A stretch of 45,198 nt of DNA from a virus. The notes under the pieces were generated by a model that made no database searches, had not been told where the DNA came from, and worked only from the letters and a program-made list of their open reading frames with translations. Positions 23,107 through 45,198 of this stretch are shown here, piece after piece. Positions within the stretch are counted from its first letter, which is position 1; each line of letters starts with the position of its first letter. Position numbers and translations under genes: made by a program. The DNA lies in the IMG/VR virus record IMGVR_UViG_3300047562_001269, positions 1-45,198 of that record; one strand, given 5' to 3'.

Positions 23107-23323
23107 TCTTGATGAAATGGAAAATATTGTTCTCTCATCTAAAGATCTTGAATGGGATGGATGGGATGTAGTAAGATATACGCCATCACATAGCGGTATG
23201 TTCTCAAAAGATGGAGCATACAAAAATGGTCAATGGCATAAAAAGAAGGTTTTTCCTTTAACAGAAAATGGATGGAACCTTCCTAACAGTATTGGAAAGA
23301 CAGATGCACGCATGGAAAGATAA
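23093..23323 (+). CDS. Small hypothetical protein upstream of WhiB
   Basis: 76 residues, rich in Trp and Gly (LEWDGWDVVRYTPSHSGMF); overlaps the deaminase by 14 bases and the WhiB gene by 20. No family recognised. Confidence 0.5.
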   Translation: MLVNNLDEMENIVLSSKDLEWDGWDVVRYTPSHSGMFSKDGAYKNGQWHKKKVFPLTENGWNLPNSIGKTDARMER

Positions 23324-23585
23324 TGCTAAATGTTTAGGAATGGATAATAATTTATTTTTTGATTCCTATGAAGAAGATAAGGCTTTGGCTGCAAGCATAG
23401 ATAAACTATGTCAGGCTTGTCCAGTTAATAGAACCTGTTTTGCTGTAGGTGTGTCAAACAAGGATTGGGGAGTTTGGGGCGGCATCTATTTGAAGGATGG
23501 TATCATAGACAAGGAGCATAATAGTCATAAGTCTAAACAAGACTGGGCAGATACATATATGGCACTATCCATGGAGATTGAATGA
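23304..23585 (+). CDS. whiB: WhiB-family iron-sulfur transcription factor
   Basis: 93 residues from ATG 23304 (GGAAAG upstream). Four cluster cysteines in WhiB spacing (C10, C36, C39, C45: C-x25-C-x2-C-x5-C) and the turn GVWGGI (residues 57-62) that contacts sigma factor. The basic AT-hook-like tail is weak (NSHKSKQDW). WhiB proteins occur only in actinobacteria and their phages, so this fixes the host phylum. It may redirect host SigA or block a host WhiB. Confidence 0.88.
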   Translation: MHAWKDNAKCLGMDNNLFFDSYEEDKALAASIDKLCQACPVNRTCFAVGVSNKDWGVWGGIYLKDGIIDKEHNSHKSKQDWADTYMALSMEIE

Positions 23586-27523: not shown

Positions 27524-27594
27524 GCGGCTGTGGTGTAGAGGTAACACAAGACTCTTCCAAAGTCTTATCGCCAGTTCGATTCTGGTCAGCCGCT
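27524..27594 (+). tRNA. tRNA-Gly(UCC)
   Basis: Acceptor GCGGCTG (27524-27530) with CAGCCGC (27587-27593), anticodon loop CTTCCAA (27554-27560, anticodon TCC), T-loop TTCGATT. No encoded CCA. Reads GGA, frequent in this arm. Confidence 0.92.
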
Positions 27595-27653
27595 CGCTTG
27601 GGAAGTTGATGTTTTGACCGTGTGAAAACATAAACAATAATTAAGGAGATAGA

Positions 27654-28196
27654 TTGTTACAGAAAGTTTATGAAAAGTATTCTCAGCCCACCTCAGATTG
27701 GGGTGGAGATAAGGGAACTGGTCACTCATATATTGAGTTATATGAAAAATATATGGAAACAAAACAATCTATTTGTCTTTTAGAAATTGGTGTTCAGTGT
27801 GGCTACTCACTAAAAATGTGGGAAGAATATTTTGCAGATTCTGATATCTATGGTATTGATATTGATTTATCATTTAATAAATTTCCAGAACTTAAAAACC
27901 TTTTTGAATTTGATGCAACTAAAAATAATTTAGTTCCAGATAGTTTTCGTTCGATAGAATTTGATTACATTGTTGATGATGGAAGTCACCGCGTTCAAGA
28001 TCAAATAAAATCTTTTGATATTTTTTATCCACAACTTAAGGTTGGTGGAAAATATTTTATCGAAGATATTGATGGAGATTTGTCCTTGCTTACCATAGCA
28101 AATCACTTGCGTAAAAGAGGAATTTCGTATATCATAGAAGATGTAAGGTATATCAAGGGCAGATTTGATGACATTATGATAGTTGCAAATAAATAA
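27654..28196 (+). CDS. SAM methyltransferase, macrocin-O-methyltransferase-like
   Basis: 180 residues from TTG 27654 with AAGGAG upstream. Motifs ICLLEIGVQCGYSLKMW near residue 41, YGIDIDLSF near 65, FDYIVDDGSHRVQDQIKS near 100 and GGKYFIEDID near 130. This is the TylF/class I group that methylates sugars. Part of the glycan-modification cargo, framed by tRNAs. Confidence 0.72.
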   Translation: MLQKVYEKYSQPTSDWGGDKGTGHSYIELYEKYMETKQSICLLEIGVQCGYSLKMWEEYFADSDIYGIDIDLSFNKFPELKNLFEFDATKNNLVPDSFRSIEFDYIVDDGSHRVQDQIKSFDIFYPQLKVGGKYFIEDIDGDLSLLTIANHLRKRGISYIIEDVRYIKGRFDDIMIVANK

Positions 28197-28202
28197 TACT
28201 TC

Positions 28203-28275
28203 CTGCGTGTGGCGCAACGGATAGCGCAAGTGGTTTCTACCCACTAGGTTGGGGGTTCGAATCCCTCCACGCAGA
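28203..28275 (+). tRNA. tRNA-Arg(UCU)
   Basis: Acceptor CTGCGTG/CACGCAG (28203-28209, 28268-28274), anticodon stem AGTGG/CCACT with loop TTTCTAC (anticodon TCT), T-loop TTCGAAT. Reads AGA, the main Arg codon in the AT-rich arm. Confidence 0.92.
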
Positions 28276-28279
28276 CTAA

Positions 28280-28359
28280 GCGGTATAGTCCCCAAGGTGG
28301 GGAAGCGGTCTGTAAAACCGTCGCCTTTGGCATGGTTGGTTCGATTCCAACATACCGCA
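28280..28359 (+). tRNA. tRNA-Tyr(GUA)
   Basis: Acceptor GCGGTAT/ATACCGC (28280-28286, 28352-28358), anticodon loop CTGTAAA (anticodon GTA at 28312-28314), long variable arm typical of bacterial tRNA-Tyr, T-loop TTCGATT. Four bases after tRNA-Arg. Confidence 0.92.
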
Positions 28360-28362
28360 CAA

Positions 28363-28391
28363 TTGACAACGCAGTCAATCAACGGTATAAT
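28363..28391 (+). promoter_or_regulatory. Perfect sigma-70 promoter
   Basis: TTGACA (28363-28368), 17 bp, TATAAT (28386-28391), exact consensus. It begins four bases after tRNA-Tyr and drives the gene at 28424 through a leader with AAAGGAG. Confidence 0.8.
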
Positions 28392-28423
28392 ATAGCAGTA
28401 AGCACACAAACAAAGGAGATGTT

Positions 28424-28645
28424 ATGGAAACTATGGTTGAAGAGCGTACAGATTTTCTAAAGGCAACAGATCGATGTGATAGGTGTGCAAGTCAGGCTTT
28501 TGTGTGGGTCAATGGAGTAAATGGTGATTTGCAATTCTGCCGTCACCATTTTCTCAAGCACGAAGATGCTATTCGTGCATACGCATTTGAAGTAATTGAT
28601 GAAACATACAAGATTAATGACAGATCTCAGTCAAGTCCTGTATAA
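28424..28645 (+). CDS. DUF7455-like zinc protein
   Basis: 73 residues under a perfect promoter. ATDRCDRCASQAFVWV (residues 14-29) and FCRHHFLKHED (near 46) form the zinc site of the small actinobacterial DUF7455 family, followed by FEVIDETYKIND. Homologues are found in actinobacteria and their phages; the role is unknown, possibly regulation. Its last codons GTA TAA overlap a TATAAT. Confidence 0.7.
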   Translation: METMVEERTDFLKATDRCDRCASQAFVWVNGVNGDLQFCRHHFLKHEDAIRAYAFEVIDETYKINDRSQSSPV

Positions 28646-28646
28646 T
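28617..28646 (+). promoter_or_regulatory. tRNA promoter overlapping stop codon
   Basis: ATGACA (28617-28622), 18 bp, TATAAT (28641-28646); the box contains the TAA stop of the upstream gene. A start near 28653 would lie just before tRNA-Thr. Confidence 0.55.
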
Positions 28647-28656
28647 TTTCAGGCAC

Positions 28657-28728
28657 GCCTCCTTAACTCAGGGGTAGAGTACCGCACTTGTAATGCGGCT
28701 GTCGTCCGTTCGAATCGGACAGGAGGCT
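28657..28728 (+). tRNA. tRNA-Thr(UGU)
   Basis: Acceptor GCCTCCT/AGGAGGC (28657-28663, 28721-28727), anticodon stem CCGCA/TGCGG with loop CTTGTAA (anticodon TGT), T-loop TTCGAAT. Reads ACA. Confidence 0.92.
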
Positions 28729-28733
28729 CGTAA

Positions 28734-28805
28734 TGGCGTGTGGCGCAACGGCAGCGCAAGGCACTGTTAATGCCTGGGTTGTAGGTTCGAATCCTACCAC
28801 GCCAG
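28734..28805 (+). tRNA. tRNA-Asn(GUU)
   Basis: Acceptor TGGCGTG/CACGCCA (28734-28740, 28798-28804), anticodon loop CTGTTAA (anticodon GTT), T-loop TTCGAAT. Five bases after tRNA-Thr. Confidence 0.92.
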
Positions 28806-28821
28806 CAAAGAAAGGAAAGCA

Positions 28822-31195: not shown

Positions 31196-31473
31196 TGGAA
31201 CTAGTTACGCTAGAAAATACAGATCAGCAAATCTATGTTCATCCAAATTTTGCCTGCAAGAATCAAAATTGTACTGTGCATAACAGAAGCGATCATCCAA
31301 TGAGATCCTTTCCCCAATATTGGAGAGTTGATCGTGCCATTATGGAGAGGACATGTCCTCACGGTGTAGGTCATCCCGATCCCGACGAGTATAAAATTAA
31401 AGGAGAATCTGGAAAATGGGAACTAGTTCACGGTTGCGACGGATGCTGCGAGGGATCATATGATTCCCTATAA
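31192..31473 (+). CDS. Conserved actinophage zinc-binding protein
   Basis: 93 residues. Contains CKNQNCTVHNRSDHPMRSFP (near residue 22-41), RTCPHGVGHPDPDEY near 58 and CDGCC near the end, a Cys/His pattern repeated in actinophage small proteins. Likely metal-binding; unknown function. Confidence 0.6.
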   Translation: MMELVTLENTDQQIYVHPNFACKNQNCTVHNRSDHPMRSFPQYWRVDRAIMERTCPHGVGHPDPDEYKIKGESGKWELVHGCDGCCEGSYDSL

Positions 31474-32497
31474 CAAAACAGCACTTTGTTTTGACGATGT
31501 TCTCCTTGTACCACAAGAAAGTGATATCAAGTCTCGTCATTCTGTAGATTTGACAATGACTATTGGATATGAAAAGAGGGCCATTTTCCTTAATCTTCCA
31601 GTCATTGCAGCACCCATGGATACTGTATGCGATATCGATATGTGTATGGCCCTAGACAAAATTGGTGGATTAGGAATACTTCATAGATACATGCCAGAAG
31701 AAACTTTAATTCAAAAAACAAAGTTGCTTTCGCATGGTAAGCACAGATTTGGCATTTCTCTTGCAGCAACAAATGGATACATGAACATTGCTGAAAAACT
31801 ATATGATGAAGGAGCAAGAATTTTTCTTGTTGACACCGCCAACGGTCATAGCGAATATGCAATTAGGGCGGTAGAAAATCTCAGACTGGCATATGACGAT
31901 GTTCATATTATGGCTGGAAATGTCGCTACCGCCGATGGTTTTATGAGATTGGCAGACGCAGGGGCAGACTCTGTAAGAGTGGGTATTGGTGGAGGAAGTG
32001 CCTGCACAACTAGACTAGTTAGTGGTCATGGTGTGCCAACTCTTGCATCGATTATGGATGTAGAAGAACTAAGAGAAATGAATGGTGTTGAATGCTCTAT
32101 CGTTGCAGATGGTGGCATTCGTAATAGTGGAGATATGGTTAAGGCATTTGCAGCAGGAGCAGACGCAGTAATGGTTGGTTCAATGATCGCAGGAACAGAT
32201 GAGGCTCCAGGCGAGATTATTACAGACCATAATGGCAAAGAGGCTAAAGTATTTCGTGGAATGGCTTCTTCACAGGCTCAAAGAGACTCTAGGGGCTCAG
32301 TATCGGTGTCTGAGGGAGTTTCGACTACAGTTCCTTATAAAGGCTCTGTAGATCATATTTTGAATCAAATTAAGGGTGGTCTAGGAAGTGGCTGTTCTTA
32401 CAGCGGGGTAGATGAACTAAGTCATTTATCTTCTATTGCAGAATATGTAGAAGTAACCTATGCTAGTTTAAATGAATCTAAGCCTCACGCCATTTAG
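31460..32497 (+). CDS. IMP dehydrogenase / GMP reductase family enzyme
   Basis: 345 residues, TIM barrel without a CBS pair, the length of GuaC-type enzymes. Elements: [14 protein letters not shown] near residue 9, [14 protein letters not shown] near 170 (active-site Cys), [11 protein letters not shown] near 210, [11 protein letters not shown] near 258. Whether it is a guanine-making IMPDH or a GMP reductase cannot be told by eye. As auxiliary metabolism it would tune purine pools for replication. Confidence 0.82.
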
Positions 32498-35935: not shown

Positions 35936-36217
35936 ATGGCTAGTCATCAATTATATACGGTAGGTACATCTGCTACTCGCATTACCCCCGCAGCAACACA
36001 TTCTGGACTAGATGTAACAATACAAAATGTTAATGATAATGGATATATCTATGTTGGTGCGACAAGCAATTTGAGTGCATCTAATTATGGATATAGAATT
36101 ATGCCTAATCATGCTATTTCTTTTGAACTACCTGGCAATGATGCATTATTTATTTGTGCTTCCGAAGCAGATTTGAATGCAGCAGTTATTATTACTGGTC
36201 TTGAGATTGGAGACTAA
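35936..36217 (+). CDS. Virion beta-protein, possible decoration
   Basis: 93 residues from leaderless ATG. Beta-rich with GLDVTIQNVNDNGYIYVG near residue 24 and GYRIMPNHAISFELPG near 52, the look of small phage virion/decoration or fibre proteins. Coupled to the next protein. Confidence 0.5.
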   Translation: MASHQLYTVGTSATRITPAATHSGLDVTIQNVNDNGYIYVGATSNLSASNYGYRIMPNHAISFELPGNDALFICASEADLNAAVIITGLEIGD

Positions 36218-36675
36218 TGGCTAGGTTTACTCAGTTTGGAATGTCGTCAACTTATGGCAGCACATCTGCTGGAACATGGGTAATTGAGGGCGGTACACTA
36301 TCAGAAGATCCAGAGGACCAGCCAGAGTTTAGTGGAGACCCACTATTTAGTGGATCATGGGTTAGATGGGGAAACATGGTTCACTTTAATATAGACGTAG
36401 ACTTTGATAATATTACAGACTTTGGTGCTGGTCAATATTATCTTAAACTTCCCTTTAATTGTGCAAATAATATGCTGTTTTCTGATGGATGCTTACATGA
36501 CCCGAATAAAGGAAATCAGTACGCTATAATGGGTCATACTGTTGCTGGGTCAGATATTCTAGAACTTCTTAGCATAACTTCTAATGGACAGCACAATCCT
36601 TTTGAATATGGTGTTCCCGTTAACTTAGACAATGCTGGAAATTTCCACATTGCTGGCACATATATCTGTGAGTGA
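36217..36675 (+). CDS. Virion fibre/decoration-like protein
   Basis: 152 residues. A C1q-like/fibre beta-sandwich: GSWVRWGNMVHFNIDVDF near residue 45 and GAGQYYLKLPF near 70. Such domains often form trimeric knobs. Placed in the accessory arm under the same leaderless promoter as 35936, away from the tail block at the left edge. Confidence 0.5.
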   Translation: MARFTQFGMSSTYGSTSAGTWVIEGGTLSEDPEDQPEFSGDPLFSGSWVRWGNMVHFNIDVDFDNITDFGAGQYYLKLPFNCANNMLFSDGCLHDPNKGNQYAIMGHTVAGSDILELLSITSNGQHNPFEYGVPVNLDNAGNFHIAGTYICE

Positions 36676-36677
36676 TA

Positions 36678-36803
36678 ATGCAACATGACCCCTTCTGTAA
36701 AGCCTACTATCCTGATTTGACAGAACCAGAACGCTGCATGTGGTGTATGGTTATTCGCAGGGTACGAGAAGATGAACGATCAAAAATAAGCGGTACACAG
36801 TGA
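36678..36803 (+). CDS. Small cysteine protein
   Basis: 41 residues, Cys at CKAY and CMWC (8, 20, 23), basic C-terminus (IRRVREDERSK). Overlaps the next gene by GTGA. Confidence 0.45.
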   Translation: MQHDPFCKAYYPDLTEPERCMWCMVIRRVREDERSKISGTQ

Positions 36804-37153
36804 AGTATATCTCCATCCCCCTAGTAGACTATATAGATATAGATGATGAACAATGTGATGTACATATACATACTAAGGATAAGAGGATATTGGTATTCAA
36901 AGATGTAAGATCCAATGCTGATATCACTGAAGAAGGATTGTATTTAGTGTATCTTTGGTTTGGACAAAACATGAATGTATTTATTTCCAGAGATGATTTC
37001 TCACATATAGAATATAGATATAGCCCCCGCCACAAAATCACCAAGAAAGATTTTGATGATTTGTACTCATATTTAGATGAGGATGTAGACTATGAATACC
37101 CCGCAGAAGCCCTCACAGAGCCTTCTGAACACCTATTTGATGACCTAATTTAG
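36800..37153 (+). CDS. Last rightward gene, hypothetical
   Basis: 117 residues from GTG 36800 (GTGA overlap). Beta-rich N-terminus (ISIPLVDYIDIDDEQCDVHI) and an acidic C-terminus. No family recognised. It ends the rightward arm; a repeat-rich convergent region follows. Confidence 0.5.
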   Translation: MKYISIPLVDYIDIDDEQCDVHIHTKDKRILVFKDVRSNADITEEGLYLVYLWFGQNMNVFISRDDFSHIEYRYSPRHKITKKDFDDLYSYLDEDVDYEYPAEALTEPSEHLFDDLI

Positions 37154-37332
37154 TAATTTAATTGTTACTGTTATATATGATGTGGGACAAAATGGTTTGA
37201 AATGGAGGAATATGGGTAATAGAATATATATAATAGGGCCGCCTCTCCATAAAAAATTATTTTAACAAACATCCCCCTACCCCCTCCCCCCATTACATGC
37301 TTCAAACACGCCAAAAATGTGTTAAAAAAACA

Positions 37333-37367
37333 CAAAAATTGGCTAATTTTTATTTGATTTCGTAATC
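37333..37367. repeat. Hairpin repeat, copy 1
   Basis: AAAAATT-GGCT-AATTTTT (37334-37351) then ATTTGATTTCGTAAT. First of four imperfect copies (37412, 37987, 38024) that flank the Ntn-hydrolase gene. Confidence 0.75.
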
Positions 37368-37404
37368 TTTTTTTAGCAAAACATTTAAAAAATCTGGAAA
37401 AAAT

Positions 37405-37429
37405 CCCAAAACAAAATTGGGGGTTTTTT
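37405..37429 (+). terminator. Intrinsic terminator of the rightward arm (in repeat copy 2)
   Basis: CCCAA (37405-37409) pairs with TTGGG (37417-37421), then GG and a T6 run. Copy 2 of the repeat (37412-37447) shares the downstream TTTGATTTCGTAATGTC. Confidence 0.55.
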
Positions 37430-37446
37430 ATTTGATTTCGTAATGT

Positions 37447-37965
37447 CTATATGCTATATATGTCTATAGGGCCAAGGCAGGTTGGACTTATATCTACCGC
37501 CGCTTGTAATGAATGTCTAATTCTTTTCTCTTGATCCTTCCAATTTTGGGAAGTATGCAAAGAACCCAATGCAATAGGACCACCTGTACCTATAGCACTA
37601 TACTCAAACTCTGCAATGTGCCAATCTTCTGATGATATTTCAAACAATCTTCCATTGACTCCTACGAGCCAATCAGTAGAATTATCTTCTAAATGAGATG
37701 CATTACCATATGTTTCAATAGCATCCTTAATAACGGATACAAAAGTGGTTCGTAATGTTTTTTCTATGTCCTTAGTTGTCTCTGGTAATTTTATAAAATG
37801 AGGCAATTCCCCAATACCCTGGCTGCCTGCATAACCAATTAGATAATCACCATTCCTCCGCACCTTCGGGCGGGTAAGTGGAAGAATACTAGATCCATCT
37901 GATGATCCTCTATCTCCCCCTATATATACACTACCATTATGAGATATTCCAACTATACAGGTCAC
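37447..37965 (-). CDS. HslV/proteasome-like Ntn hydrolase
   Basis: 172 residues from GTG 37965. After Met removal the N-terminus is TCIVGI, giving nucleophile Thr1; the mature chain has IGGDR (Asp17) and TRPKV (Lys33) at exactly the proteasome/HslV catalytic positions, the GYAGS turn (~44-47) and a GTGGPIALGSL motif near 126. It has the size of HslV, with no propeptide. No ATPase partner (HslU, ClpX) is in the window. It is read from a leaderless promoter (37972-38000). Confidence 0.85.
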   Translation of the reverse strand: MTCIVGISHNGSVYIGGDRGSSDGSSILPLTRPKVRRNGDYLIGYAGSQGIGELPHFIKLPETTKDIEKTLRTTFVSVIKDAIETYGNASHLEDNSTDWLVGVNGRLFEISSEDWHIAEFEYSAIGTGGPIALGSLHTSQNWKDQEKRIRHSLQAAVDISPTCLGPIDIYSI

Positions 37966-37971
37966 GGGCCT

Positions 37972-38000
37972 ATTATACTCCTAAATGAAAAAATTGGCAA
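37972..38000 (-). promoter_or_regulatory. Leaderless promoter of the Ntn hydrolase gene
   Basis: On the minus strand: TTGCCA (38000-37995), 17 bp, TATAAT (37977-37972), six bases, GTG 37965. TTCGTAA-type repeats lie just upstream (37987-38080). Confidence 0.7.
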
Positions 38001-38060
38001 ATATTTTTTTGATTTCGTAATGTCAAAAATTGGCGATTTTTTTTCTGCTTTCGTAATGTC
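37987..38060. repeat. Hairpin repeats, copies 3 and 4
   Basis: Two adjacent copies (37987-38024 and 38024-38060) of AAAAATTGGC-N-TTTTT-TGNTTTCGTAATGTC, upstream of the Ntn gene. Copies 1-2 lie at its other end. Confidence 0.7.
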
Positions 38061-38062
38061 TT

Positions 38063-38120
38063 TTCGTAAAGCGTTCGTAAAGTCCTTTATGTCCTTTTTG
38101 TCGTTATTTCCGGCCCGCCC
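38063..38120. repeat. Boundary element A (TTCGTAA...ATTTCCGGCC)
   Basis: Two TTCGTAA words (38063, 38074), TTTATGTCC, and ATTTCCGGCC (38106-38115). Similar to elements B (41909-41962) and C (44991-45044). It lies between the end of one leftward transcript and the next promoter. Confidence 0.65.
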
Positions 38121-38124
38121 CTGC

Positions 38125-38214
38125 CTAAGGTGCTAGACAGGAGGCGACAACCAGGATGAGTCCAATCAAAAAGAATCCAGATAGAAAGGTGGTTAACATA
38201 TCGTCACCCTTCAT
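38125..38214 (-). CDS. Small single-TM peptide
   Basis: 29 residues, start ATG 38214 sharing a base with the upstream TGA. One hydrophobic segment (MLTTFLSGFFLIGLILVVAS) of about 20 residues. The same design recurs at the end of the last leftward unit (45044). Function unknown, maybe a membrane-targeting toxin or lysis regulator. Confidence 0.5.
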   Translation of the reverse strand: MKGDDMLTTFLSGFFLIGLILVVASCLAP

Positions 38215-38543
38215 CAGATCTCAACATTCATTACATCAATCTTTGGTGCATTGGGTGATGCTTCCCAGCATTGTCCAAGATGCTCATATGATGCGTCAGG
38301 GTCAATAGAGATAATCGCACAGAATGTTGTCCATGCTTCCTCAATAAACTTCTCTGACTCCATGCCCTTCTCAGTTGCAGGGATAATAGCAAGACCCTGT
38401 GAAATCATGTGGGACAGTGGCAACGCAATGTCAGCCCATGCAAAGAACTCTGACCAATTCTCGTCTGCCTCTGCATCTGCGCGGTAATACAACCACAGAT
38501 CACCTAGGATATTGCACTTGTTAGAAAAGGGTGTCTTGGACAT
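38214..38543 (-). CDS. Conserved actinophage protein
   Basis: 109 residues. CNILGDLWLYYRADAEADEN at residues 10-29 and ADIALPLSHMISQGL (near 38) match a widespread small actinophage family (ADLW...LPLA type) of unknown function. Overlaps its upstream neighbour by 23 bases. Confidence 0.65.
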   Translation of the reverse strand: MSKTPFSNKCNILGDLWLYYRADAEADENWSEFFAWADIALPLSHMISQGLAIIPATEKGMESEKFIEEAWTTFCAIISIDPDASYEHLGQCWEASPNAPKIDVMNVEI

Positions 38544-38754
38544 ACTGTTGATCCTCCTTGATACGATTACGTTCCCATTCTACATGATTGGCGAAGTCTT
38601 GGATACGGTCTAGCACTACCTCAGGATATGCGTTTACTACTGTGTAGAACGCAAGATACATAAGGTCATGATCCCTCACCCTACCATCGCTGAAAATGTC
38701 AAGCAACTTTAGAGCGTGCTTCTCAAAGCGGCTGCGGTCACCTGTGTTCATCAT
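38521..38754 (-). CDS. Small conserved phage protein
   Basis: 77 residues from ATG 38754 or 38751 behind GGAGG. Helical (FEKHALKLLDIFSDGRVRDH). First gene of a unit with its own promoter (38762-38790). Unknown. Confidence 0.55.
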   Translation of the reverse strand: MMNTGDRSRFEKHALKLLDIFSDGRVRDHDLMYLAFYTVVNAYPEVVLDRIQDFANHVEWERNRIKEDQQYVQDTLF

Positions 38755-38761
38755 GCCTCCA

Positions 38762-38790
38762 ATCATACACTAGGGGTCTGACAATAGCAA
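38762..38790 (-). promoter_or_regulatory. Sigma-70 promoter
   Basis: TTGCTA (38790-38785), 17 bp, TATGAT (38767-38762). It abuts a terminator hairpin (38791-38820), so one unit ends where the next begins. Confidence 0.65.
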
Positions 38791-38820
38791 GGGGGAGAGG
38801 TCGGTGTTGACCCCTCCCCC
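38791..38820 (-). terminator. GC-rich terminator hairpin
   Basis: GGGGGAG-a-GGTC / GACC-c-CTCCCCC with a 6-base loop (one mismatch), 14 bases after the stop of the 54-residue gene. The T-run is weak. Confidence 0.65.
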
Positions 38821-38833
38821 AAGACTATTGGAA

Positions 38834-38998
38834 TTAGCGAGAGGTAACCTTCTGGCCCTTACGCAGTGCAGAGAGGGAAATAGTATCCACGAATCGTCCC
38901 TGCTCACGGATCACAACACGATCCGACTTGCCATACCGCGTGTCCCACTGCTCAAGGTAAGCGTAGGTCTTGCGGGGCTTGCTGTTCTTGCTTGCCAT
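38834..38998 (-). CDS. Small basic protein
   Basis: 54 residues with AAGGAG before ATG 38998. Begins KNSKPRKTYAYLEQWDTRYG and is basic. It has a consensus promoter of its own (39036-39065) and a terminator after it, i.e. a monocistronic unit. Unknown function. Confidence 0.6.
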   Translation of the reverse strand: MASKNSKPRKTYAYLEQWDTRYGKSDRVVIREQGRFVDTISLSALRKGQKVTSR

Positions 38999-39035
38999 TT
39001 ATTTCTCCTTAGTGTAGGTAATTACTTACTGGGAT

Positions 39036-39065
39036 ATTATACTAGTACCTTGGCGAACTTGTCAA
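39036..39065 (-). promoter_or_regulatory. Consensus sigma-70 promoter
   Basis: TTGACA (39065-39060), 18 bp, TATAAT (39041-39036), inside the end of the upstream gene; AAGGAG leader before ATG 38998. Confidence 0.75.
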
Positions 39066-39414
39066 GGAATTGCTGGAAAGTCATTGTGAATTTAGGATTG
39101 TAGAAGTCTACTCCAATACCCCAGTCGTGGGGGTACAGGGTGACAGTCTTAGCAGACCAGTCCACGATGGGAATAGAATGCTCGTTGTCTCCAACACGGG
39201 TAGAGATACCCCAACTGTATTCCTGGCTCCATTCCTCGCCAATCATTGTTGAGATAGCAATTCTTGTTGCATATGATTCATCATTCCAACGAGGGTTCGC
39301 TGCAATGATAGCATCTGCTAGGCGAGCCATCATCTGATGCCCTGCCCAATGTCCGTACAGATAGATAATGTCACCATCTGCCTGACGGAATCCGAAGTTT
39401 GCACGATCACCCAT
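39037..39414 (-). CDS. Conserved phage protein (MGDRANFGF type)
   Basis: 125 residues from ATG 39414 (GGAGG upstream). GDRANFGFRQADGDIIYLYG at the N-terminus, WAGHQMMARLADAI near 23, and RVGDNEHSIPIVDW (near 78). A phage protein family of unknown function seen in actinophages. TAATG overlap with its upstream neighbour. Confidence 0.65.
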   Translation of the reverse strand: MGDRANFGFRQADGDIIYLYGHWAGHQMMARLADAIIAANPRWNDESYATRIAISTMIGEEWSQEYSWGISTRVGDNEHSIPIVDWSAKTVTLYPHDWGIGVDFYNPKFTMTFQQFLDKFAKVLV

Positions 39415-39587
39415 TACTCTGCCTCCCAAACATCGACATTTTCCTGTACCTCGCCACCTGTGGTGGTAGCGTTGTCCCAATTATACTTACCTGACCAGAA
39501 ATTGTCAAGTGCTGCTTCCTTAGATTCTGCCTCTACCTCCATGCGATACCAATCTTCGTTGGTCCATTCGATAACATACTTAGGCAT
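39414..39587 (-). CDS. Small protein
   Basis: 57 residues from ATG 39587 (GGAGGGGAG upstream). Begins MPKYVIEWTNEDWYRMEVEA. Its start resembles the 46-residue neighbour (MPKHLVTI), suggesting a small paralogous pair. Unknown. Confidence 0.55.
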   Translation of the reverse strand: MPKYVIEWTNEDWYRMEVEAESKEAALDNFWSGKYNWDNATTTGGEVQENVDVWEAE

Positions 39588-39720
39588 TCCACTCCCCTCC
39601 TGGAATAACGCCAACGTCTGGCAGACCAATAAGTTCGATTAGATAATCAGGATTGGTGATAACAAACTCGACATACACCTCACCATCTTCATTAGTTATG
39701 GTAACTAGATGCTTAGGCAT
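39580..39720 (-). CDS. Small protein, paralogue-like of neighbour
   Basis: 46 residues, starts MPKHLVTITNEDGEVYVEFV. It overlaps both neighbours by 1-8 bases. Same MPK start and beta layout as the product at 39587. Confidence 0.5.
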   Translation of the reverse strand: MPKHLVTITNEDGEVYVEFVITNPDYLIELIGLPDVGVIPGGEWNA

Positions 39721-39875
39721 TAGAAAATCACCGCCAAGAATAAGATAGCCAATATAATTAGTGATAGTGTGCCAACCATTCCGAAACCTACCTCGGCCTT
39801 GTTGGTCATACGCATACTAGGATCACGGGTCATGCGTCCTGTATGCCTGTGCATGTCATATGCCTTGCCCCACAT
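39720..39875 (-). CDS. Small membrane-anchored protein
   Basis: 51 residues with GGGAGG before ATG 39875. Polar basic N-terminus, then one C-terminal TM segment (MVGTLSLIILAILFLAVIF). Tail-anchored design. Unknown. Confidence 0.55.
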   Translation of the reverse strand: MWGKAYDMHRHTGRMTRDPSMRMTNKAEVGFGMVGTLSLIILAILFLAVIF

Positions 39876-40153
39876 TACAACCTCCCATGAATGTCGCGGA
39901 ATCCTAGATCATACACGAAACGCTCTGTGCTATTCCATGCAGACTCGCCATAGAACAACTGTGACTTCTTGACACCGTTGATGGTGTAGGTCACACGATA
40001 GAAGTCGGGGAAGGGATATCCATTCTCTACCTTGACTGCAATGGAACGATCACACCAATCAACAGCAGAGTTCTCATAGAGATTATCCCAACGAGATACC
40101 TGCCCAACCTTGGGCCGCTTGCTAGGGCGGTATGTCCAATAGTCTGTCGTCAT
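39875..40153 (-). CDS. Hypothetical protein
   Basis: 92 residues, basic N-terminus (YRPSKRPKVGQVSRWD) and aromatic centre (FYRVTYTINGVKKSQLF). TAATG overlap with the next gene. No family recognised. Confidence 0.5.
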   Translation of the reverse strand: MTTDYWTYRPSKRPKVGQVSRWDNLYENSAVDWCDRSIAVKVENGYPFPDFYRVTYTINGVKKSQLFYGESAWNSTERFVYDLGFRDIHGRL

Positions 40154-40353
40154 GATACTGCGCCTCCCAATGCTAGGTTATACTCATACCAATCTTGTGT
40201 GTAGAGCACGAAGTCTACACCATCAGACCGCAAGGTGTCAAGGTATGCATCAAGGTCTTTTTGCTCAATGCACCTAATGAAATTATCTTGAGAATCATAT
40301 ACATCCCAATAGAACGGCTGTGCTCCCCAATCTATTTCATATAGTTTGATCAC
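40150..40353 (-). CDS. Hypothetical protein
   Basis: 67 residues from GTG 40353 (GTGA overlap; GGAG upstream). Residues YEIDWGAQPFYWDVYDSQDN at the N-terminus. Unknown. Confidence 0.5.
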   Translation of the reverse strand: MIKLYEIDWGAQPFYWDVYDSQDNFIRCIEQKDLDAYLDTLRSDGVDFVLYTQDWYEYNLALGGAVS

Positions 40354-40490
40354 GGTTGCTCCAACCCTAGAATCCACCAATTGAGATCAGCGTTGTCGTG
40401 TGCCCATAATTCTCCATCCTCAAACTCATCGAATGGGCCATAGAAATCTATACTGTCAAACATCTCACCAACGGCAACGATGTATTTCAC
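40350..40490 (-). CDS. Small acidic protein
   Basis: 46 residues from GTG 40490 (GTGA overlap with the upstream gene's stop). Acidic and aromatic (FDSIDFYGPFDEFEDG). Unknown; part of a chain of coupled genes. Confidence 0.5.
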   Translation of the reverse strand: MKYIVAVGEMFDSIDFYGPFDEFEDGELWAHDNADLNWWILGLEQP

Positions 40491-40690
40491 AGTTCATTTC
40501 CATTCTCATCTTGGAAGATAAGGCCAGACAGACCACCAAAGTCCTCGTCTACCCATTCCTCAATGTATTCTAGAACATCATCAACAGACCTAGGCTCCCA
40601 ATCTCCATGGCTTAGGTTCATGTCCTGAATAATCGACGGTACATGATAAGTAACAGTCTTGATAACGTTGATTCTCTCAGGCAGACTCAT
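40487..40690 (-). CDS. Hypothetical protein
   Basis: 67 residues from ATG 40690 (GGAGG upstream). Acidic C-terminus (YIEEWVDEDFGGLSG). Unknown. Confidence 0.5.
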   Translation of the reverse strand: MSLPERINVIKTVTYHVPSIIQDMNLSHGDWEPRSVDDVLEYIEEWVDEDFGGLSGLIFQDENGNEL

Positions 40691-40751
40691 TGTAGTACCT
40701 CCACTTATCCTCGGAATAGTCAAAGTCAAATAGTTCTAGTTGATCATCCAT
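40677..40751 (-). CDS. Tiny acidic ORF
   Basis: 24 residues (GGAG seven bases upstream of ATG 40751), overlapping both neighbours; acidic/aromatic (ELFDFDYSEDKWRYYN). Plausible only by its place in the chain. Confidence 0.4.
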   Translation of the reverse strand: MDDQLELFDFDYSEDKWRYYNESA

Positions 40752-40989
40752 CGGCATTCTCCAATTGTGGCACGGGAATAACATCAACCATAGATTGTAG
40801 CGTGCGAAGCAACTGCATGTCAAGTTCCTCCTCCGCACCCTCTGGAACCTTCCATCCATAGAAGTGACGCTCATACTGCTCAGTATCCCAAAGGTTACCG
40901 TCAGCAAAGTAGGCGAAGGTATCAGATTCGACAAACCACTTCATAGAAGTGTCATCATATCCAATAACGAAATGGTACTGCTTGCTCAT
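40744..40989 (-). CDS. Hypothetical protein
   Basis: 81 residues from ATG 40989 (GGGAGG upstream). Begins KQYHFVIGYDDTSMKWFVES. Unknown. Confidence 0.5.
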   Translation of the reverse strand: MSKQYHFVIGYDDTSMKWFVESDTFAYFADGNLWDTEQYERHFYGWKVPEGAEEELDMQLLRTLQSMVDVIPVPQLENADG

Positions 40990-41246
40990 GCTGCTTCCTC
41001 CCAATAGAGTGCGTCCCATAGACGCAGTTCTTCCATCATTGAGTATCCTGTAATTGTGGCACCGTTAGGCAATGTCCACTCTTGATCTAATGCCTCCTGG
41101 TTGTCGATGAAGTATTCGTCAATGTCTGGATCATACCATGCCCCCGCCTCTGCACGCAACTTGTCAAAGAATGATTGACAGGATAGTTGGATATCGGCGG
41201 GTATGGGTGGATAGAAATTGCAGGTTAGGTGATAAGTAATATCCAC
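40986..41246 (-). CDS. Hypothetical protein
   Basis: 86 residues from GTG 41246, sharing one base with the upstream stop. Beta N-terminus (TYHLTCNFYPPIPADIQLS) and aromatic C-terminus (LRLWDALYWEEA). Unknown. Confidence 0.5.
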   Translation of the reverse strand: MDITYHLTCNFYPPIPADIQLSCQSFFDKLRAEAGAWYDPDIDEYFIDNQEALDQEWTLPNGATITGYSMMEELRLWDALYWEEAA

Positions 41247-41380
41247 TATGCTACCTCAATACTTCCATAGTCCCAAACAGATTCCATGAGTAACTGTTCT
41301 GCATTTGATACTGCATCACCCTCGCTGTCTGCCTCAACAAACATGGTGATGTTGCTAACATGGACTTCATAGGTGCTCAC
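41246..41380 (-). CDS. Small protein
   Basis: 44 residues from GTG 41380 (GTGA overlap). Beta strand YEVHVSNITMFVEADSEGDA then helix. Too small for the usual size cut-off; supported by coupling on both sides. Confidence 0.5.
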   Translation of the reverse strand: MSTYEVHVSNITMFVEADSEGDAVSNAEQLLMESVWDYGSIEVA

Positions 41381-41814
41381 ATTTCCTCCACTTGGATACC
41401 CGCAGTTTCATAGGACTGAACCTCAACATCTGACGAATAGGTATTGGTGATCTCAACCTCAAGATCGCCATGCAGATCGTCAATGTCATATCCTACTGGA
41501 ACAGTTACCTCTACGTCAATATCAGCGGTAACGCGAACGGTAACAGTACGGATAAGATTACGACCAAAGAATGATGCAAGTTCCTCTGCATAGTCATTCT
41601 CAATATCACCATCCTCAACAAACTGCATAAGGCGTTCGATCATAGAGTCAATGCGTGCTTCCATGCTTGTAACACGACTACGCTCCATGTTGATAGTACC
41701 GCGAAGGCTCTCAATAGTGGTATCCTTTTCATCACGCTCTTCGTGCAATTGCTCAATCTCCTCCATCAACGACTGAATCATCGCGGGGGATGAAGTATTG
41801 ACATATGTATCCAT
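41377..41814 (-). CDS. Coiled-coil protein, head of the small-gene operon
   Basis: 145 residues. N-terminal coiled coil (MEEIEQLHEERDEKDTTIES, residues ~17-36, continuing to ~70) and a C-terminal beta domain (TVRVTADIDVEVTVPVGYD). GAAAGG upstream of ATG. It has its own promoter (41844-41872) and leads thirteen coupled genes down to 39037. Confidence 0.55.
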   Translation of the reverse strand: MDTYVNTSSPAMIQSLMEEIEQLHEERDEKDTTIESLRGTINMERSRVTSMEARIDSMIERLMQFVEDGDIENDYAEELASFFGRNLIRTVTVRVTADIDVEVTVPVGYDIDDLHGDLEVEITNTYSSDVEVQSYETAGIQVEEM

Positions 41815-41843
41815 GACATACCTTTCATCTAGTAGGTAGTCTG

Positions 41844-41872
41844 ATCCTATAACGGATAGAGGTAAATGTCAA
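41844..41872 (-). promoter_or_regulatory. Sigma-70 promoter of the small-gene operon
   Basis: TTGACA (41872-41867), 17 bp, TAGGAT (41849-41844). Boundary element B lies 36 bp upstream. Confidence 0.7.
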
Positions 41873-41908
41873 GCAAAAAATGGGGAATCCTGGCGAATTT
41901 CTTAATGG

Positions 41909-41962
41909 TTCGTAAATGTTTATTTATATATAAATGTCTTATTTGATATGATTTCCGGCCCG
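41909..41962. repeat. Boundary element B
   Basis: TTCGTAAATG, AAATGTC and ATTTCCGGCCCG, matching elements A and C. It starts right after the tRNA-Asp end on the leftward strand and lies upstream of the operon promoter. Confidence 0.65.
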
Positions 41963-41968
41963 TTTTGG

Positions 41969-42041
41969 CGCACCTGATGGGATTCGAACCCACGACCTCC
42001 ACCGTGACAGGGTGGCGAGCACTCCGCTGCTCTACAGGTGC
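41969..42041 (-). tRNA. tRNA-Asp(GUC)
   Basis: Minus-strand cloverleaf: acceptor GCACCTG/CAGGTGC, anticodon stem CCACC/GGTGG with loop CTGTCAC (anticodon GTC), T-loop TTCGAAT. It ends the DUF932 transcription unit. Confidence 0.9.
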
Positions 42042-42077
42042 ATGTGGGCAGTTTATTGTCATGCCCAGGACTAGCGA

Positions 42078-43073
42078 TTACGCGAACGCAACCTCTTTGA
42101 CAACATGCAACATGCTGTTCTTTGCGGAAGTGGTCGAAGGATCGAAACCACTAGCAGCAGCAAGGACAGACTCTGCATTACCACCGCGAGGATTGCGATA
42201 CCAATCAAGGCGTTCGGTCAGTGCGTTGTATGCACCCCACGCAGTACCCTTGATGTTCACGCAGGTCTCACCGTTGTAGATGGTGTTGAGAGTGTCGATC
42301 TTGTTCTCCCACTTTGTCATTGCACCCTTGACGTTCTCCTCAGGCTTAGGGTAGATCGTCGTGATGATATCAAAGAACTTCTGATCGTTGATCTCCTTTG
42401 CGATCATCTCAGCAGCGATTTTGTCAAATGCATCAAGGTACTGATTGGCAAGGCCCAACGCCTCACGCGCAGCCTGCACCTTACCCTGCAAAGTCTGGGT
42501 ATGGCGAATACGGAAGGACTGCTTTGCACCCTTGCCCTTGTAGCCAACTGCCATGTTGAGTGTGTTCTGGCAGACAACACGCACAGGGGTAACGCTAGCC
42601 TGAATAGCAAGCGAGCCATCGTGCGAGGTATGCACAAGAAGGTAGTTGTTCACCTTGTCACCACGACCATTGGGATCAAGTTCGGTAGTGCGATCAAGTG
42701 CAAGCGAACCGAACACAACGGTTCCGTTCTTGATAGAGCCAGCAGTCTCCCAACGCCCACCGTCAAGAAGTGCGTCACCGAAGGTAAACAGTTCCTCATT
42801 CTGGAGAACCTTGTAACGCTCGCCCACGACACCCAGAACGTCAGTCTGACCATCGAATGGATTGGTGCGAACAGTCGCAAAGTAATCACGATGCGAACGG
42901 CCTGGAAGGTCTACAGTCTCTAGGCGAACATTCCAACCAGACAGGTGCGCGAGGTCTAACATCTCCTGCGTGCTAACTGCCTCGTCGATGACGGTTCCAA
43001 GGCCATGCCAAGCGGGTTGCCGCAAGGATGCGAAGGAAGCCATGTCGCCGTACTGCTCCAACATATGTGCCAT
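42078..43073 (-). CDS. DUF932 phage/plasmid-like protein (TIGR03299)
   Basis: 331 residues. The family pattern is clear: MASFASLRQPAWHGLGTVID near residue 11, GWNVRLETVDLP near 46, VGERYKVLQNEELFTFGD near 82 and VTPVRVVCQNTLNMA near 161. Found on phages and plasmids; function unknown. GC-rich codon choice sets it apart from the rightward arm. AGGAGAAAC ribosome site. Confidence 0.88.
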   Translation of the reverse strand: MAHMLEQYGDMASFASLRQPAWHGLGTVIDEAVSTQEMLDLAHLSGWNVRLETVDLPGRSHRDYFATVRTNPFDGQTDVLGVVGERYKVLQNEELFTFGDALLDGGRWETAGSIKNGTVVFGSLALDRTTELDPNGRGDKVNNYLLVHTSHDGSLAIQASVTPVRVVCQNTLNMAVGYKGKGAKQSFRIRHTQTLQGKVQAAREALGLANQYLDAFDKIAAEMIAKEINDQKFFDIITTIYPKPEENVKGAMTKWENKIDTLNTIYNGETCVNIKGTAWGAYNALTERLDWYRNPRGGNAESVLAAASGFDPSTTSAKNSMLHVVKEVAFA

Positions 43074-43105
43074 TTTGTTTCTCCTAACTAGTTGTTGATG
43101 TGATA

Positions 43106-43135
43106 ACTATACATCCTAGGTCTGACATTTGTCAA
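43106..43135 (-). promoter_or_regulatory. Sigma-70 promoter of DUF932 unit
   Basis: TTGACA (43135-43130), 18 bp, TATAGT (43111-43106). Confidence 0.7.
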
Positions 43136-43158
43136 TAGCAAAATAGGAAAACTTCGGG

Positions 43159-43172
43159 GTGATCATAATCAC
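43159..43172. promoter_or_regulatory. Palindrome GTGATCATAATCAC, possible operator
   Basis: Inverted repeat GTGAT-CATA-ATCAC, 24 bases upstream of the DUF932 -35 box (leftward). A related site lies at 43786-43800. Confidence 0.4.
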
Positions 43173-43285
43173 ATCGTAAACACTTGACAAAATGGGGGGG
43201 GTGGGGGCCGGAATTTTTGGCAAAGAGAAGCCCCTAGGGGAGCGTTGCGGTGGGTGGGGTACGCTCAACCCTAGGGGGGTAGAAG

Positions 43286-43319
43286 GGAGGTGGCAAATAT
43301 CTACGGATACCCCACCTCC
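43286..43319. repeat. 8-bp inverted repeat hairpin
   Basis: GGAGGTGG (43286-43293) and CCACCTCC (43312-43319), perfect arms, 18-base loop. May be a terminator or RNA fold. Confidence 0.5.
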
Positions 43320-43372
43320 AGAATGTGGAAGCAGTTTCTTGTCATGCTCAGGACTTATGCTATTTGATAGCG

Positions 43373-43440
43373 CACCCTGTCAAGGAATCGAACCTAGCAA
43401 GACAAGTTTTGGAGGCTCGTCTGCACCCAGTGCCCAAGGC
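43373..43440 (-). tRNA. Degenerate tRNA-like element, tRNA-Trp(CCA)-like
   Basis: Minus strand: acceptor GCCTTGG with ACAGGGT (six of seven pairs, two wobble), short D-arm (CTG/CAG), anticodon loop CTCCAAA (CCA) on an imperfect stem, 5-base variable loop, T-arm CTAGG/CCTTG around canonical TTCGATT. The short D-arm and mismatches suggest a decaying or unusual tRNA. Confidence 0.4.
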
Positions 43441-43785
43441 TTGAGTGAAGAAGTTATCTAGGCTTATTCTTCTTCTTTAGACTTGCAGCGTTAGCAATGA
43501 CTTCTGCTAATACTTCTACGATGCATGACACACTAGACTGCAAGTTAGGAAGCGAGACGTTGCATTTCTCAGAACGCTATTTATCATAGTTGGATCTGTG
43601 CATCATGCGGGTCGCATATCCTAAGTCATTGGGGGTAGTTCTCACAACTACCTGCCTCCTGCCACCTTTCGGTGAGTCCTATTCGGCCCCAAGTTTACAC
43701 TAGGTTCGTGTTGGAACAGGCATCCCATGAAAGCCCAACCACGCATTACCGATGACTTGACCTAGAAACCCCTATTTAGTTAGAT

Positions 43786-43800
43786 TGTGATTATATCACA
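43786..43800. promoter_or_regulatory. Palindrome TGTGATTATATCACA, possible operator
   Basis: A 15-bp perfect palindrome (6-bp arms, 3-base centre) just after the stop of the next leftward gene. CRP-like in look, but with 5 rather than 6 bases between the TGTGA half-sites. Confidence 0.4.
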
Positions 43801-43801
43801 G

Positions 43802-43948
43802 TTACTTGATGGTTGTCCAGCGAGTACCCTCGCTAGTCATCAAGCGCAACCGCACGGAACCCGAAGGATTCTCCACGATTTCCTCAATCGTTCCCGTGAC
43901 CCCACTCTTGAGAGTCGTGAACTGTGAGCCAACAGTCAGTGTTGCCAT
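43802..43948 (-). CDS. Small beta protein
   Basis: 48 residues with AAAGGAAG before ATG 43948 and its own promoter. Begins MATLTVGSQFTTLKSGVTGT, a strand-rich small protein of a type seen in actinophages. Unknown. Confidence 0.55.
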   Translation of the reverse strand: MATLTVGSQFTTLKSGVTGTIEEIVENPSGSVRLRLMTSEGTRWTTIK

Positions 43949-43979
43949 TTTGCTTCCTTTCGTTTGTTGTTGTAGGTAT

Positions 43980-44009
43980 ATTGTAGTGTGGTGGTGGGGT
44001 ACTTGTCAA
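43980..44009 (-). promoter_or_regulatory. Sigma-70 promoter
   Basis: TTGACA (44009-44004), 18 bp, TACAAT (43985-43980). Confidence 0.7.
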
Positions 44010-44036
44010 GGACTTTCCCCCACCGTTATCAAATTG

Positions 44037-44561
44037 TTACCAAGATGCCTGGTAGACGAATGAGTAGTGGTAGTCATCCTCATGGACAAGAGAGAATATA
44101 TTGTCAATGATTTGGATGGTACGACGCAGGTCGTCCATGTAGTATTCATCCATCTCAGAGGAGCCAAAGAAAAATCCTTGGGTAGGCAATAGACCATAGT
44201 CATCTGCAATATCCTCTAATTCGACACCCACAGGAGCCTTGAGAACATTGTTGCAAGCCAACCGAAGTTGTTCCAGATTCTCACGGGATACATAGATGGG
44301 CTGACATTCATCTACCCCGTTTGCAAGGGTATTGACAAACCAACCATGAATGGCATTGGCCTTGCGCCAATATCCAACAGGGAATGTCAAAGTGATTCCG
44401 CTAAAGTCAGAAAACTTATCGAAACCCTTAGGCGCATACTCTGACAGAGCAGAATATTCGCGGGTAAGTGGGGGAGGCCATTCATCTGCCTGCCTATCAA
44501 ATGCAGCATAGTCAAACTTACTAACATGCTTACGCATTTCTAGATACATATCAAGTCCCAC
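44037..44561 (-). CDS. Conserved phage protein (MGLDMYL family)
   Basis: 174 residues from GTG 44561 (AAAGGTGG upstream). GLDMYLEMRKHVSKFDYAAF at the N-terminus, VGYWRKANAIHGWFV near 81 and LLPTQGFFFGSSEMDEYYMD near 144 match a widespread phage family of unknown function. A His/Trp pocket (YWRKANAIH) is its hallmark. Confidence 0.7.
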   Translation of the reverse strand: MGLDMYLEMRKHVSKFDYAAFDRQADEWPPPLTREYSALSEYAPKGFDKFSDFSGITLTFPVGYWRKANAIHGWFVNTLANGVDECQPIYVSRENLEQLRLACNNVLKAPVGVELEDIADDYGLLPTQGFFFGSSEMDEYYMDDLRRTIQIIDNIFSLVHEDDYHYSFVYQASW

Positions 44562-44597
44562 GATGGACCCACCTTTCTTGTTGTTAGACTAAACCTA

Positions 44598-44804
44598 TCA
44601 GACTTCAGCGAGATTGTCAATGACTACAGGCACTTTGATTGTGTCCTCTACTGTGAGATAGCGCACATCGCCTTCCTCGTCAATCAAACGAAAGCGGTAT
44701 CCCTCATCATTTGGCTCAATGCCCACTACACGGTACACAGAACCATTAACAAAGATTTGATCTTGTTCCTCTAGGGCGTATGCTTCAATGCGTTCAGTTG
44801 TCAT
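44598..44804 (-). CDS. Small hypothetical protein
   Basis: 68 residues from ATG 44804 (AAAGGAGAG upstream). Begins MTTERIEAYALEEQDQIFVN, beta-rich centre (YRFRLIDEEGDVRYLTVED). Overlaps its upstream neighbour by 11 bases. Unknown. Confidence 0.5.
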   Translation of the reverse strand: MTTERIEAYALEEQDQIFVNGSVYRVVGIEPNDEGYRFRLIDEEGDVRYLTVEDTIKVPVVIDNLAEV

Positions 44805-44928
44805 GCTTGCTCTCCTTTTTCCATTCCCGCTTTTCGCGGGTACGAATGATCTTAGCAGACTCACGGGGGTAGCAGCAAGTGCAACCCTTGTGCCCATTGC
44901 GAGCGATGTTCCTATTTGATCTGATCAT
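44794..44928 (-). CDS. Conserved small zinc-binding protein (GHKGCTCC type)
   Basis: 44 residues from leaderless ATG 44928. NGHKGCTCCYPRESAKIIRT (residues 11-30) is a motif conserved in small actinophage proteins, followed by a very basic helix. Nucleic acid binding is likely. Read from the promoter at 44935-44963. Confidence 0.65.
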   Translation of the reverse strand: MIRSNRNIARNGHKGCTCCYPRESAKIIRTREKREWKKESKHDN

Positions 44929-44934
44929 GGCTTG

Positions 44935-44963
44935 ACCTTATCACATACCTCTGACATTGTACA
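44935..44963 (-). promoter_or_regulatory. Leaderless promoter
   Basis: On the minus strand: TGTACA (44963-44958), 17 bp, TGA-TAAGGT (TAAGGT 44940-44935), six bases, ATG 44928. Weak boxes but the same spacing as the other leaderless sites. Confidence 0.55.
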
Positions 44964-44990
44964 GGGTATTTTGGTAAATTTTTGGTAACG

Positions 44991-45044
44991 GTCGTAAACG
45001 TTCGTAAGATGTTTATGTCCGATTTGTACATATTTCCGGCCCCC
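44991..45044. repeat. Boundary element C
   Basis: GTCGTAAACG-TTCGTAAGATG, TTTATGTCC and ATTTCCGGCCCC, closely like elements A and B. It begins at the stop of the 24-residue TM gene and lies 28-37 bp upstream of the next promoter. Confidence 0.65.
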
Positions 45045-45118
45045 TACCACCAGCGGTATGCTAGATAGATAGCAGCGACGATAAGTAGCAATCCAATTAG
45101 ACCGCGACCTATAATCAT
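45044..45118 (-). CDS. Tiny single-TM peptide
   Basis: 24 residues, almost all hydrophobic (GLIGLLLIVAAIYLAYRWW), starting in an overlap with the upstream TGA. Its design and place just before a boundary element match the peptide at 38125. Function unknown. Confidence 0.55.
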   Translation of the reverse strand: MIIGRGLIGLLLIVAAIYLAYRWW

Positions 45119-45198
45119 TCTTCATCACAATACTTGCAATGATGATTTTTGTCAAATAGCATTCCCATGAGATGATCAGTAAATTCTAATCTTTGTTC
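45115..45198 (-). CDS. 3' end of a small zinc protein (partial)
   Basis: 27 visible residues running off the window, ending HHCKYCDEE, which suggests a zinc site. The start lies beyond the edge. Confidence 0.5.
   Translation of the reverse strand, partial: EQRLEFTDHLMGMLFDKNHHCKYCDEE

Follow-up and report, generated by a model that had tools for sequence, protein, structure and literature searches.

A likely actinophage gene for a proteasome-like Ntn hydrolase of the AAH type

The open reading frame at positions 37447..37965 on the minus strand of the viral DNA analyzed here encodes a real proteasome-like Ntn hydrolase and is not a chance ORF. The window, as the whole analyzed stretch is called below, comprises positions 1 to 45,198 of the IMG/VR record IMGVR_UViG_3300047562_001269, an incomplete contig. 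The ORF itself, its match to phrog_1040, a structural model, a Foldseek search with this model and the dN/dS ratios were used for the assignment. Judged by sequence, the protein of 172 amino acids is an AAH-type member of PHROG 1040, a kind already described in phages, and its working mode is most likely that of BPH and not that of HslV. Proteasome-like proteins of phages have been proposed before: the AAH class was described by Fuchs, Alva and Lupas in 2021 and was already present in many phages, and the phage proteasome homologs described in that year were given no function (PMC8665760). A literature search for tested functions of phage HslV-like proteins found none. New are the actinophage clade, the direct repeats flanking the gene and the recurrent adjacency to terminase or portal genes in other phages.

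The ORF and its active site

The GTG of the ORF is the earliest possible start codon past the upstream stop codon. With the methionine removed, the mature protein has 171 residues, begins with TCIVGISHNGSVYIGGDRGSSDGSSILPLTRPKV and carries T1, D17 and K33 in place; the ORF starts with Met-Thr, and a propeptide is absent. Both the intact triad at these positions and the missing propeptide had been read from the sequence in the preliminary description, and both readings hold. All three codons are on the minus strand. Among the 52 aligned relatives, T occupies the position of the N-terminal nucleophile Thr1 (ACC, 37960..37962) in 51 cases and S in one; at Asp17 (GAT, 37912..37914), 50 have D and 2 have E; and at Lys33 (AAG, 37864..37866), all 52 have K. 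An exchange of Asp17 for Glu occurs in the close relatives L015 (1968-1970) and L018 (3049-3051), the former being very near to L016, an Asp17 form. The proteasome beta subunit of Thermoplasma has Glu17 by nature, so the exchange is conservative.

In the close clade, dN/dS was between 0.17 and 0.54, which indicates purifying selection, and the Thr1 and Lys33 codons show synonymous changes. Asp166 and Ser169 of the proteasome are seemingly not conserved in the alignment, and the Ser129-like position is T in the window protein and C in 33 of the 52 rows. The activity may therefore differ.

Sequence matches and predicted structure

The profile phrog_1040, “peptidase HslV family,” matches residues 1 to 172 with an E value of 8.1e-16. 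An assignment to the 20S proteasome beta subunits by the Pfam Proteasome profile was rejected, as the 15.4 bits obtained with the window protein are below the curated cut-off of 22.4 bits, and the top sequence match in the PDB, Thermotoga HslV, was weak (E 0.0016). An AlphaFold2 model based on the 52-row alignment of the window and IMG/VR loci reached a pLDDT of 95.5 and a pTM of 0.91, with helices at residues 48-51, 53-56, 66-85, 90-93, 128-137 and 144-158; helix H1 (48-56) is short. When this model was compared with the PDB by Foldseek, the top match was the BPH of Thiobacillus (5ovt, E 5e-13, TM 0.86/0.81), followed by HslV with a TM of about 0.72 and then by 20S beta subunits with about 0.7. 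A total of 1156 PDB chains matched with E <= 0.001, and the first 50 were all BPH, HslV or 20S. The preliminary description had proposed such a structure prediction and search against HslV and proteasome beta for a suspected proteasome-like Ntn hydrolase, and the predicted model indeed has the proteasome-like Ntn beta sandwich with an N-terminal nucleophile.

Place of the protein among proteasome homologs

Five close relatives with 55 to 82% identity were found in IMG/VR, and a wider scan there gave 58 relatives; the number of GenBank phage records with relatives was 22 to 213, varying with the query. These GenBank phages include T5-like Salmonella and Escherichia phages and 121Q-like jumbo phages, and cellular family members come from Azospirillum, Rhizobiales, Actinobacteria (Dactylosporangium, Streptomyces and Frankia) and Bacillota. 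The gene is also present on the very large viral contig L037 of 578292 bases. The taxonomic spread of the relatives is the one given for AAH, which is distributed over alpha-proteobacteria, Actinobacteria and phages (PMC8665760).

In a maximum-likelihood tree, the window and the relatives L015 to L019, whose gene flanks and promoters carry the labels L001 to L005, form a clade with 100/100 support, called the window clade below. It shows 25 to 39% identity to the remaining family and nests in a group of phage and AAH-like cellular proteins (100/77). HslV, PrcB, BPH and PPH are all outside this group, HslV as a separate clade (100/99) and BPH as a single sequence on a long branch. Several long branches and an unsettled bootstrap make the deep placements rough. 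A recent capture of the gene from a host is unsupported by the tree because the window clade is not nested among the cellular AAH proteins.

With the AAH proteins, the window protein shares the compact group I subunit with a Met-Thr start, no propeptide and an intact triad, and the fact that no AAA+ partner is known. The window clade differs in having Arg18 instead of Ser and in an acidic pore loop with zero basic residues. BPH (5OVS, 5OVT and 5OVU) has the closest fold and likewise lacks a propeptide, has an acidic pore loop and no known unfoldase; it is nevertheless only about 20% identical to the window protein, its loop is longer, and the tree sets it apart from the window clade. BPH is heptameric, forming a tetradecameric double ring, an assembly that the window protein may share.

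The likeness to HslV (ClpQ) comprises the fold, T1, D17 and K33, and a GSGG-like motif that is GTGG in the window protein. An exact agreement in size had also been claimed, which is approximately right, with 171 residues in the mature protein versus 171 to 175 in the HslV sequences fetched. Identity in the structural alignment is 19 to 23%, and the window protein has a longer pore loop without the basic pore cluster. HslV itself is a dodecameric double hexamer. Membership in HslV, as it had been proposed before, was rejected on the basis of the tree placement and the pore loop, and no HslU was found in the fragmentary phage contigs; the better structural match to BPH (TM 0.86 versus about 0.72) points in the same direction.

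PPH is also a proteasome homolog carried by a phage. It has about 140 residues and no helix H2, whereas the window protein has 172 residues, the H2-region helix 66-85 and H1-region helices, so that membership in PPH was rejected by length and by helix H2. The 140-residue protein of the Caulobacter phage CcrColossus, taken as a PPH by its size, is on a very long branch outside the family. Another likely actinophage, the Actinomycetia phage DSL-LC01 (OQ999401), has an HslV-annotated protein (L153:8001-8690) that adjoins WhiB and matches the family profile with an E value of 2.4e-32. This protein is outside the family, near BPH on a long branch, and not a close relative of the window protein.

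Assignment of a host

The window contains a gene of the WhiB family at 23268..23585 on the plus strand (PF02467, E 3.7e-14, at 23313-23486), which points to an actinobacterial host. The WhiB family is described as confined to Actinobacteria and the phages infecting them (PMC10611076), and among 14 control genomes only Corynebacterium gave a signal with the profile. The polymerase and the terminase of the window are 54 to 55% identical to those of Streptomyces phages of the Stanwilliamsviridae. Because of the WhiB gene and these two proteins, an actinobacterial host is likely, as had been assumed before; the AAH gene itself is absent from four cultured phages of this group. AAH was not reported from any Actinobacteria-specific phage (PMC8665760), a gap that the window clade would fill if its host has been correctly deduced.

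The pore loop and possible ATPase partners

In HslV, the loop after helix H2 is short with a basic cluster of Arg86, Arg89 and Lys90, and in BPH, for which an unfoldase is not known, it is long and acidic (PMC5777263). The corresponding loop of the window protein, residues 85 to 97 (YGNASHLEDNSTD; 37672..37710 on the minus strand), has G86, S89 and H90, so that the basic cluster of HslV is absent. It contains 4 acidic and no basic residues, and the rest of the clade has 5 acidic and again no basic residues, the averages for all 52 rows being 2.9 acidic and 1.4 basic residues.

The preliminary description had noted the lack of an ATPase partner in the window, and this was corroborated: neither the window nor any of the five relatives, two of which are 72 to 74 kb long, gave a hit for an AAA or AAA_2 domain, all contigs being fragments. 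An ATPase of the phage may be encoded elsewhere in the genome since the contigs of the window and its relatives are incomplete. On the side of the host, no HslU match exceeded the cut-off in six AAH-bearing actinobacterial genomes, and 20S proteasome subunits occur in 2 of the 6, namely, Streptomyces and Dactylosporangium. Proteasomal ATPases are known from such actinobacterial hosts, and ClpX, ClpC or a proteasomal ATPase of the host are possible partners.

These data bear on the foremost alternative, in which a phage core particle docks on a host AAA+ unfoldase such as ClpX, ClpC or the actinobacterial proteasomal ATPase and redirects ATP-dependent degradation. The lack of an AAA+ protein in the available contigs and the 20S subunits in the AAH-bearing Streptomyces and Dactylosporangium would agree with it. 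Docking is unlikely, however: the basic pore cluster through which HslV responds to HslU is missing, and the family is distributed over phages of very different hosts for which no common unfoldase is known. A takeover of HslU in particular, one form of the host unfoldase takeover considered before, is disfavored because none of the six AAH-bearing Actinobacteria had an HslU match over the cut-off. For a competition with the proteasome of the host, likewise suggested before, the data speak neither for nor against. The acidic loop, the lack of AAA and AAA_2 domains in the available contigs and of HslU in the six Actinobacteria together make a chamber protease working independently of an ATPase, presumably as a ring, the likeliest arrangement.

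Genes adjacent to the AAH gene

In the window clade, the 3 kb on either side of the AAH gene contain no head genes. The AAH gene is adjoined by a small gene without assigned function at 38214..38543, conserved in L015 to L019, and upstream of this by a second small gene at 38521..38766, which belongs to the cluster common to the same relatives. Both are on the minus strand, and neither has a PHROG or Pfam match. The window also encodes an enzyme of the IMP dehydrogenase/GMP reductase family (31460-32497, plus strand; PF00478, E 4e-96), a DUF932 protein (42078-43073, minus strand; PF06067, E 1e-53; phrog_1221) and six tRNAs at 27524-28806 and 41966-42041, those for Gly, Arg, Tyr, Thr and Asn on the plus and that for Asp on the minus strand. 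No convincing conserved neighbors were found in the cellular loci, where ORFs shared between the GC-rich Azospirillum loci were mostly antisense or genus-specific.

The surroundings of the gene in other phages led to the alternative that comes next in probability and is likewise rather improbable, a protease of virion assembly or packaging, which in temperate relatives would be part of the head module and act in the processing or clearance of head, portal or terminase proteins. Outside the window clade, 43 non-redundant viral loci were counted without a matched control; in 24 of them, a gene for a terminase, portal protein, prohead protease or capsid protein was present within 3 kb of the AAH gene, and in 14 such a gene was its immediate neighbor. 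The neighbors come from unrelated families, with the terminases phrog_9, phrog_38 and phrog_15 and the portals phrog_2662 and phrog_10963. Loci with the gene beside a gene of these kinds are L021, L023, L026, L027, L029, L031, L033 to L036, L048, L049, L059, L060 and L065. On the other hand, the gene of the window clade is in another module, that of the T5-like relatives is located beside thymidylate synthase and RNase H, and the same head modules also carry separate prohead proteases. Moreover, terminase neighborhoods often acquire cargo genes. The adjacency to terminase and portal genes is a lead worth testing since no informative genomic context has been reported for AAH (PMC8665760).

Promoter and flanking direct repeats

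A sigma-70-type promoter, TTGCCA-17-TATAAT, is located at 37972..38000 on the minus strand, and its −10 motif ends 6 nt before the GTG. Transcription initiation at this distance would place the TSS on the start codon. A promoter of at least 11/12 matching positions 5 to 7 nt upstream was found for only 1 of the 2918 ATG/GTG triplets of the window, and the start of the AAH gene fits it. L004 (11/12) and L003 (9/12) share this geometry; L005 has the promoter with a gap of 30 nt, and no promoter was found in the corresponding stretch of L001 and L002. Leaderless genes are common in Actinobacteria, and a leaderless start of the gene, suggested earlier from the GTG codon, is supported by these sequence comparisons. 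The region 36000-45198 contains 37 sigma-70-like promoters on both strands versus 21 expected, with the strongest ones on the minus strand (39480-39508, 39036-39065, 43106-43135 and 40794-40823). This excess and the orientation of the strongest promoters suggest transcription of the region by the polymerase of the host.

The gene is bracketed by copies of a direct repeat, ATTACGAA-N-AAAATCGCC, which have the same orientation as its transcription. Sequence comparison placed the distal upstream copy at 38032..38057, the promoter-proximal copy, which overlaps the −35 motif, at 37996..38021, the first downstream copy, 2 nt past the stop codon, at 37419..37444, and the second downstream copy at 37341..37366, all on the minus strand. 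The first downstream copy runs into a hairpin resembling an intrinsic terminator (37405-37421). Similar copies flank the gene in all six clade members; each of the six has two of them upstream, and 5 of 6 have one or two downstream as well. The second half of the repeat varies between genomes and tends to be common within one genome. When a strict pattern was used, all 3 distinct matches in the 74-kb contig G004 and 3 of the 4 in the window were at the AAH gene; there were none in L005, the copies of which are more diverged. A dedicated regulator may use the repeats as its operators. A further copy inside the coding region, at about codon 70, was left as a possible coincidence in view of its moderate score, the conserved LRTT encoded by its core and its absence in L003.

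Proposed mode of action and remaining alternatives

With a confidence somewhat above even, the AAH protein is regarded as an active, homo-oligomeric, BPH-like threonine protease that is independent of a dedicated AAA+ unfoldase. Methionine aminopeptidase would remove the initial methionine and expose Thr1, which together with Asp17 and Lys33 would form a classical proteasomal active site. The subunits would assemble into a homo-oligomeric cylinder like that of BPH and work without a dedicated AAA+ unfoldase, so that unfolded or specific small proteins may pass the acidic pore loop and be cut in the chamber. The gene forms a unit by itself in an accessory region of the minus strand and has a strong promoter of the host type, which suggests early action, possibly on proteins of the host or the phage.

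Assembly into a ring is the step against which the short H1 of the model and the precedent of the archaeal connectase may count. Connectase is a monomeric protein ligase, and the proteasome-like family includes members that do not form rings (PMC8665760). This leads to a third, doubtful alternative ranked after docking and packaging, that of a specific processing enzyme or ligase acting as a small oligomer or monomer. Connectase, however, is distinguished by a helical insertion and by the lack of H1 and H2, while the model of the window protein has H1- and H2-region helices and no insertion. Most improbable is an inactive decoy subunit that poisons host rings, as had also been considered before: a ring-forming fold could in principle co-assemble, but the protein is far from PrcB and HslV by sequence and tree, and conservation of the triad in all 52 relatives, T/S and D/E exchanges allowed, together with the dN/dS values favors an enzyme.

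Implications

An active, BPH-like protease may thus be encoded by a clade that adds a likely actinophage case to the AAH proteins, together with evidence for a BPH-like rather than an HslV-like mode of working. A more general scenario is speculative and improbable as it stands: a ring protease free of an ATPase would recur in phages, on the one hand as an unrecognized protease of morphogenesis or quality control in the terminase-portal-protease-capsid module of many temperate phages, on the other hand as a separately regulated single-gene unit of the actinophage clade, bracketed by operator-like repeats and acting in proteasome-bearing hosts. Two leads result, the placement beside terminase and portal genes in other phages and the operator-like repeats around the AAH gene of the window. 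Some hundreds of records of sequenced phages contain homologs, among them T5-like phages that can be grown on laboratory strains of E. coli, which makes the function of these proteins directly testable.
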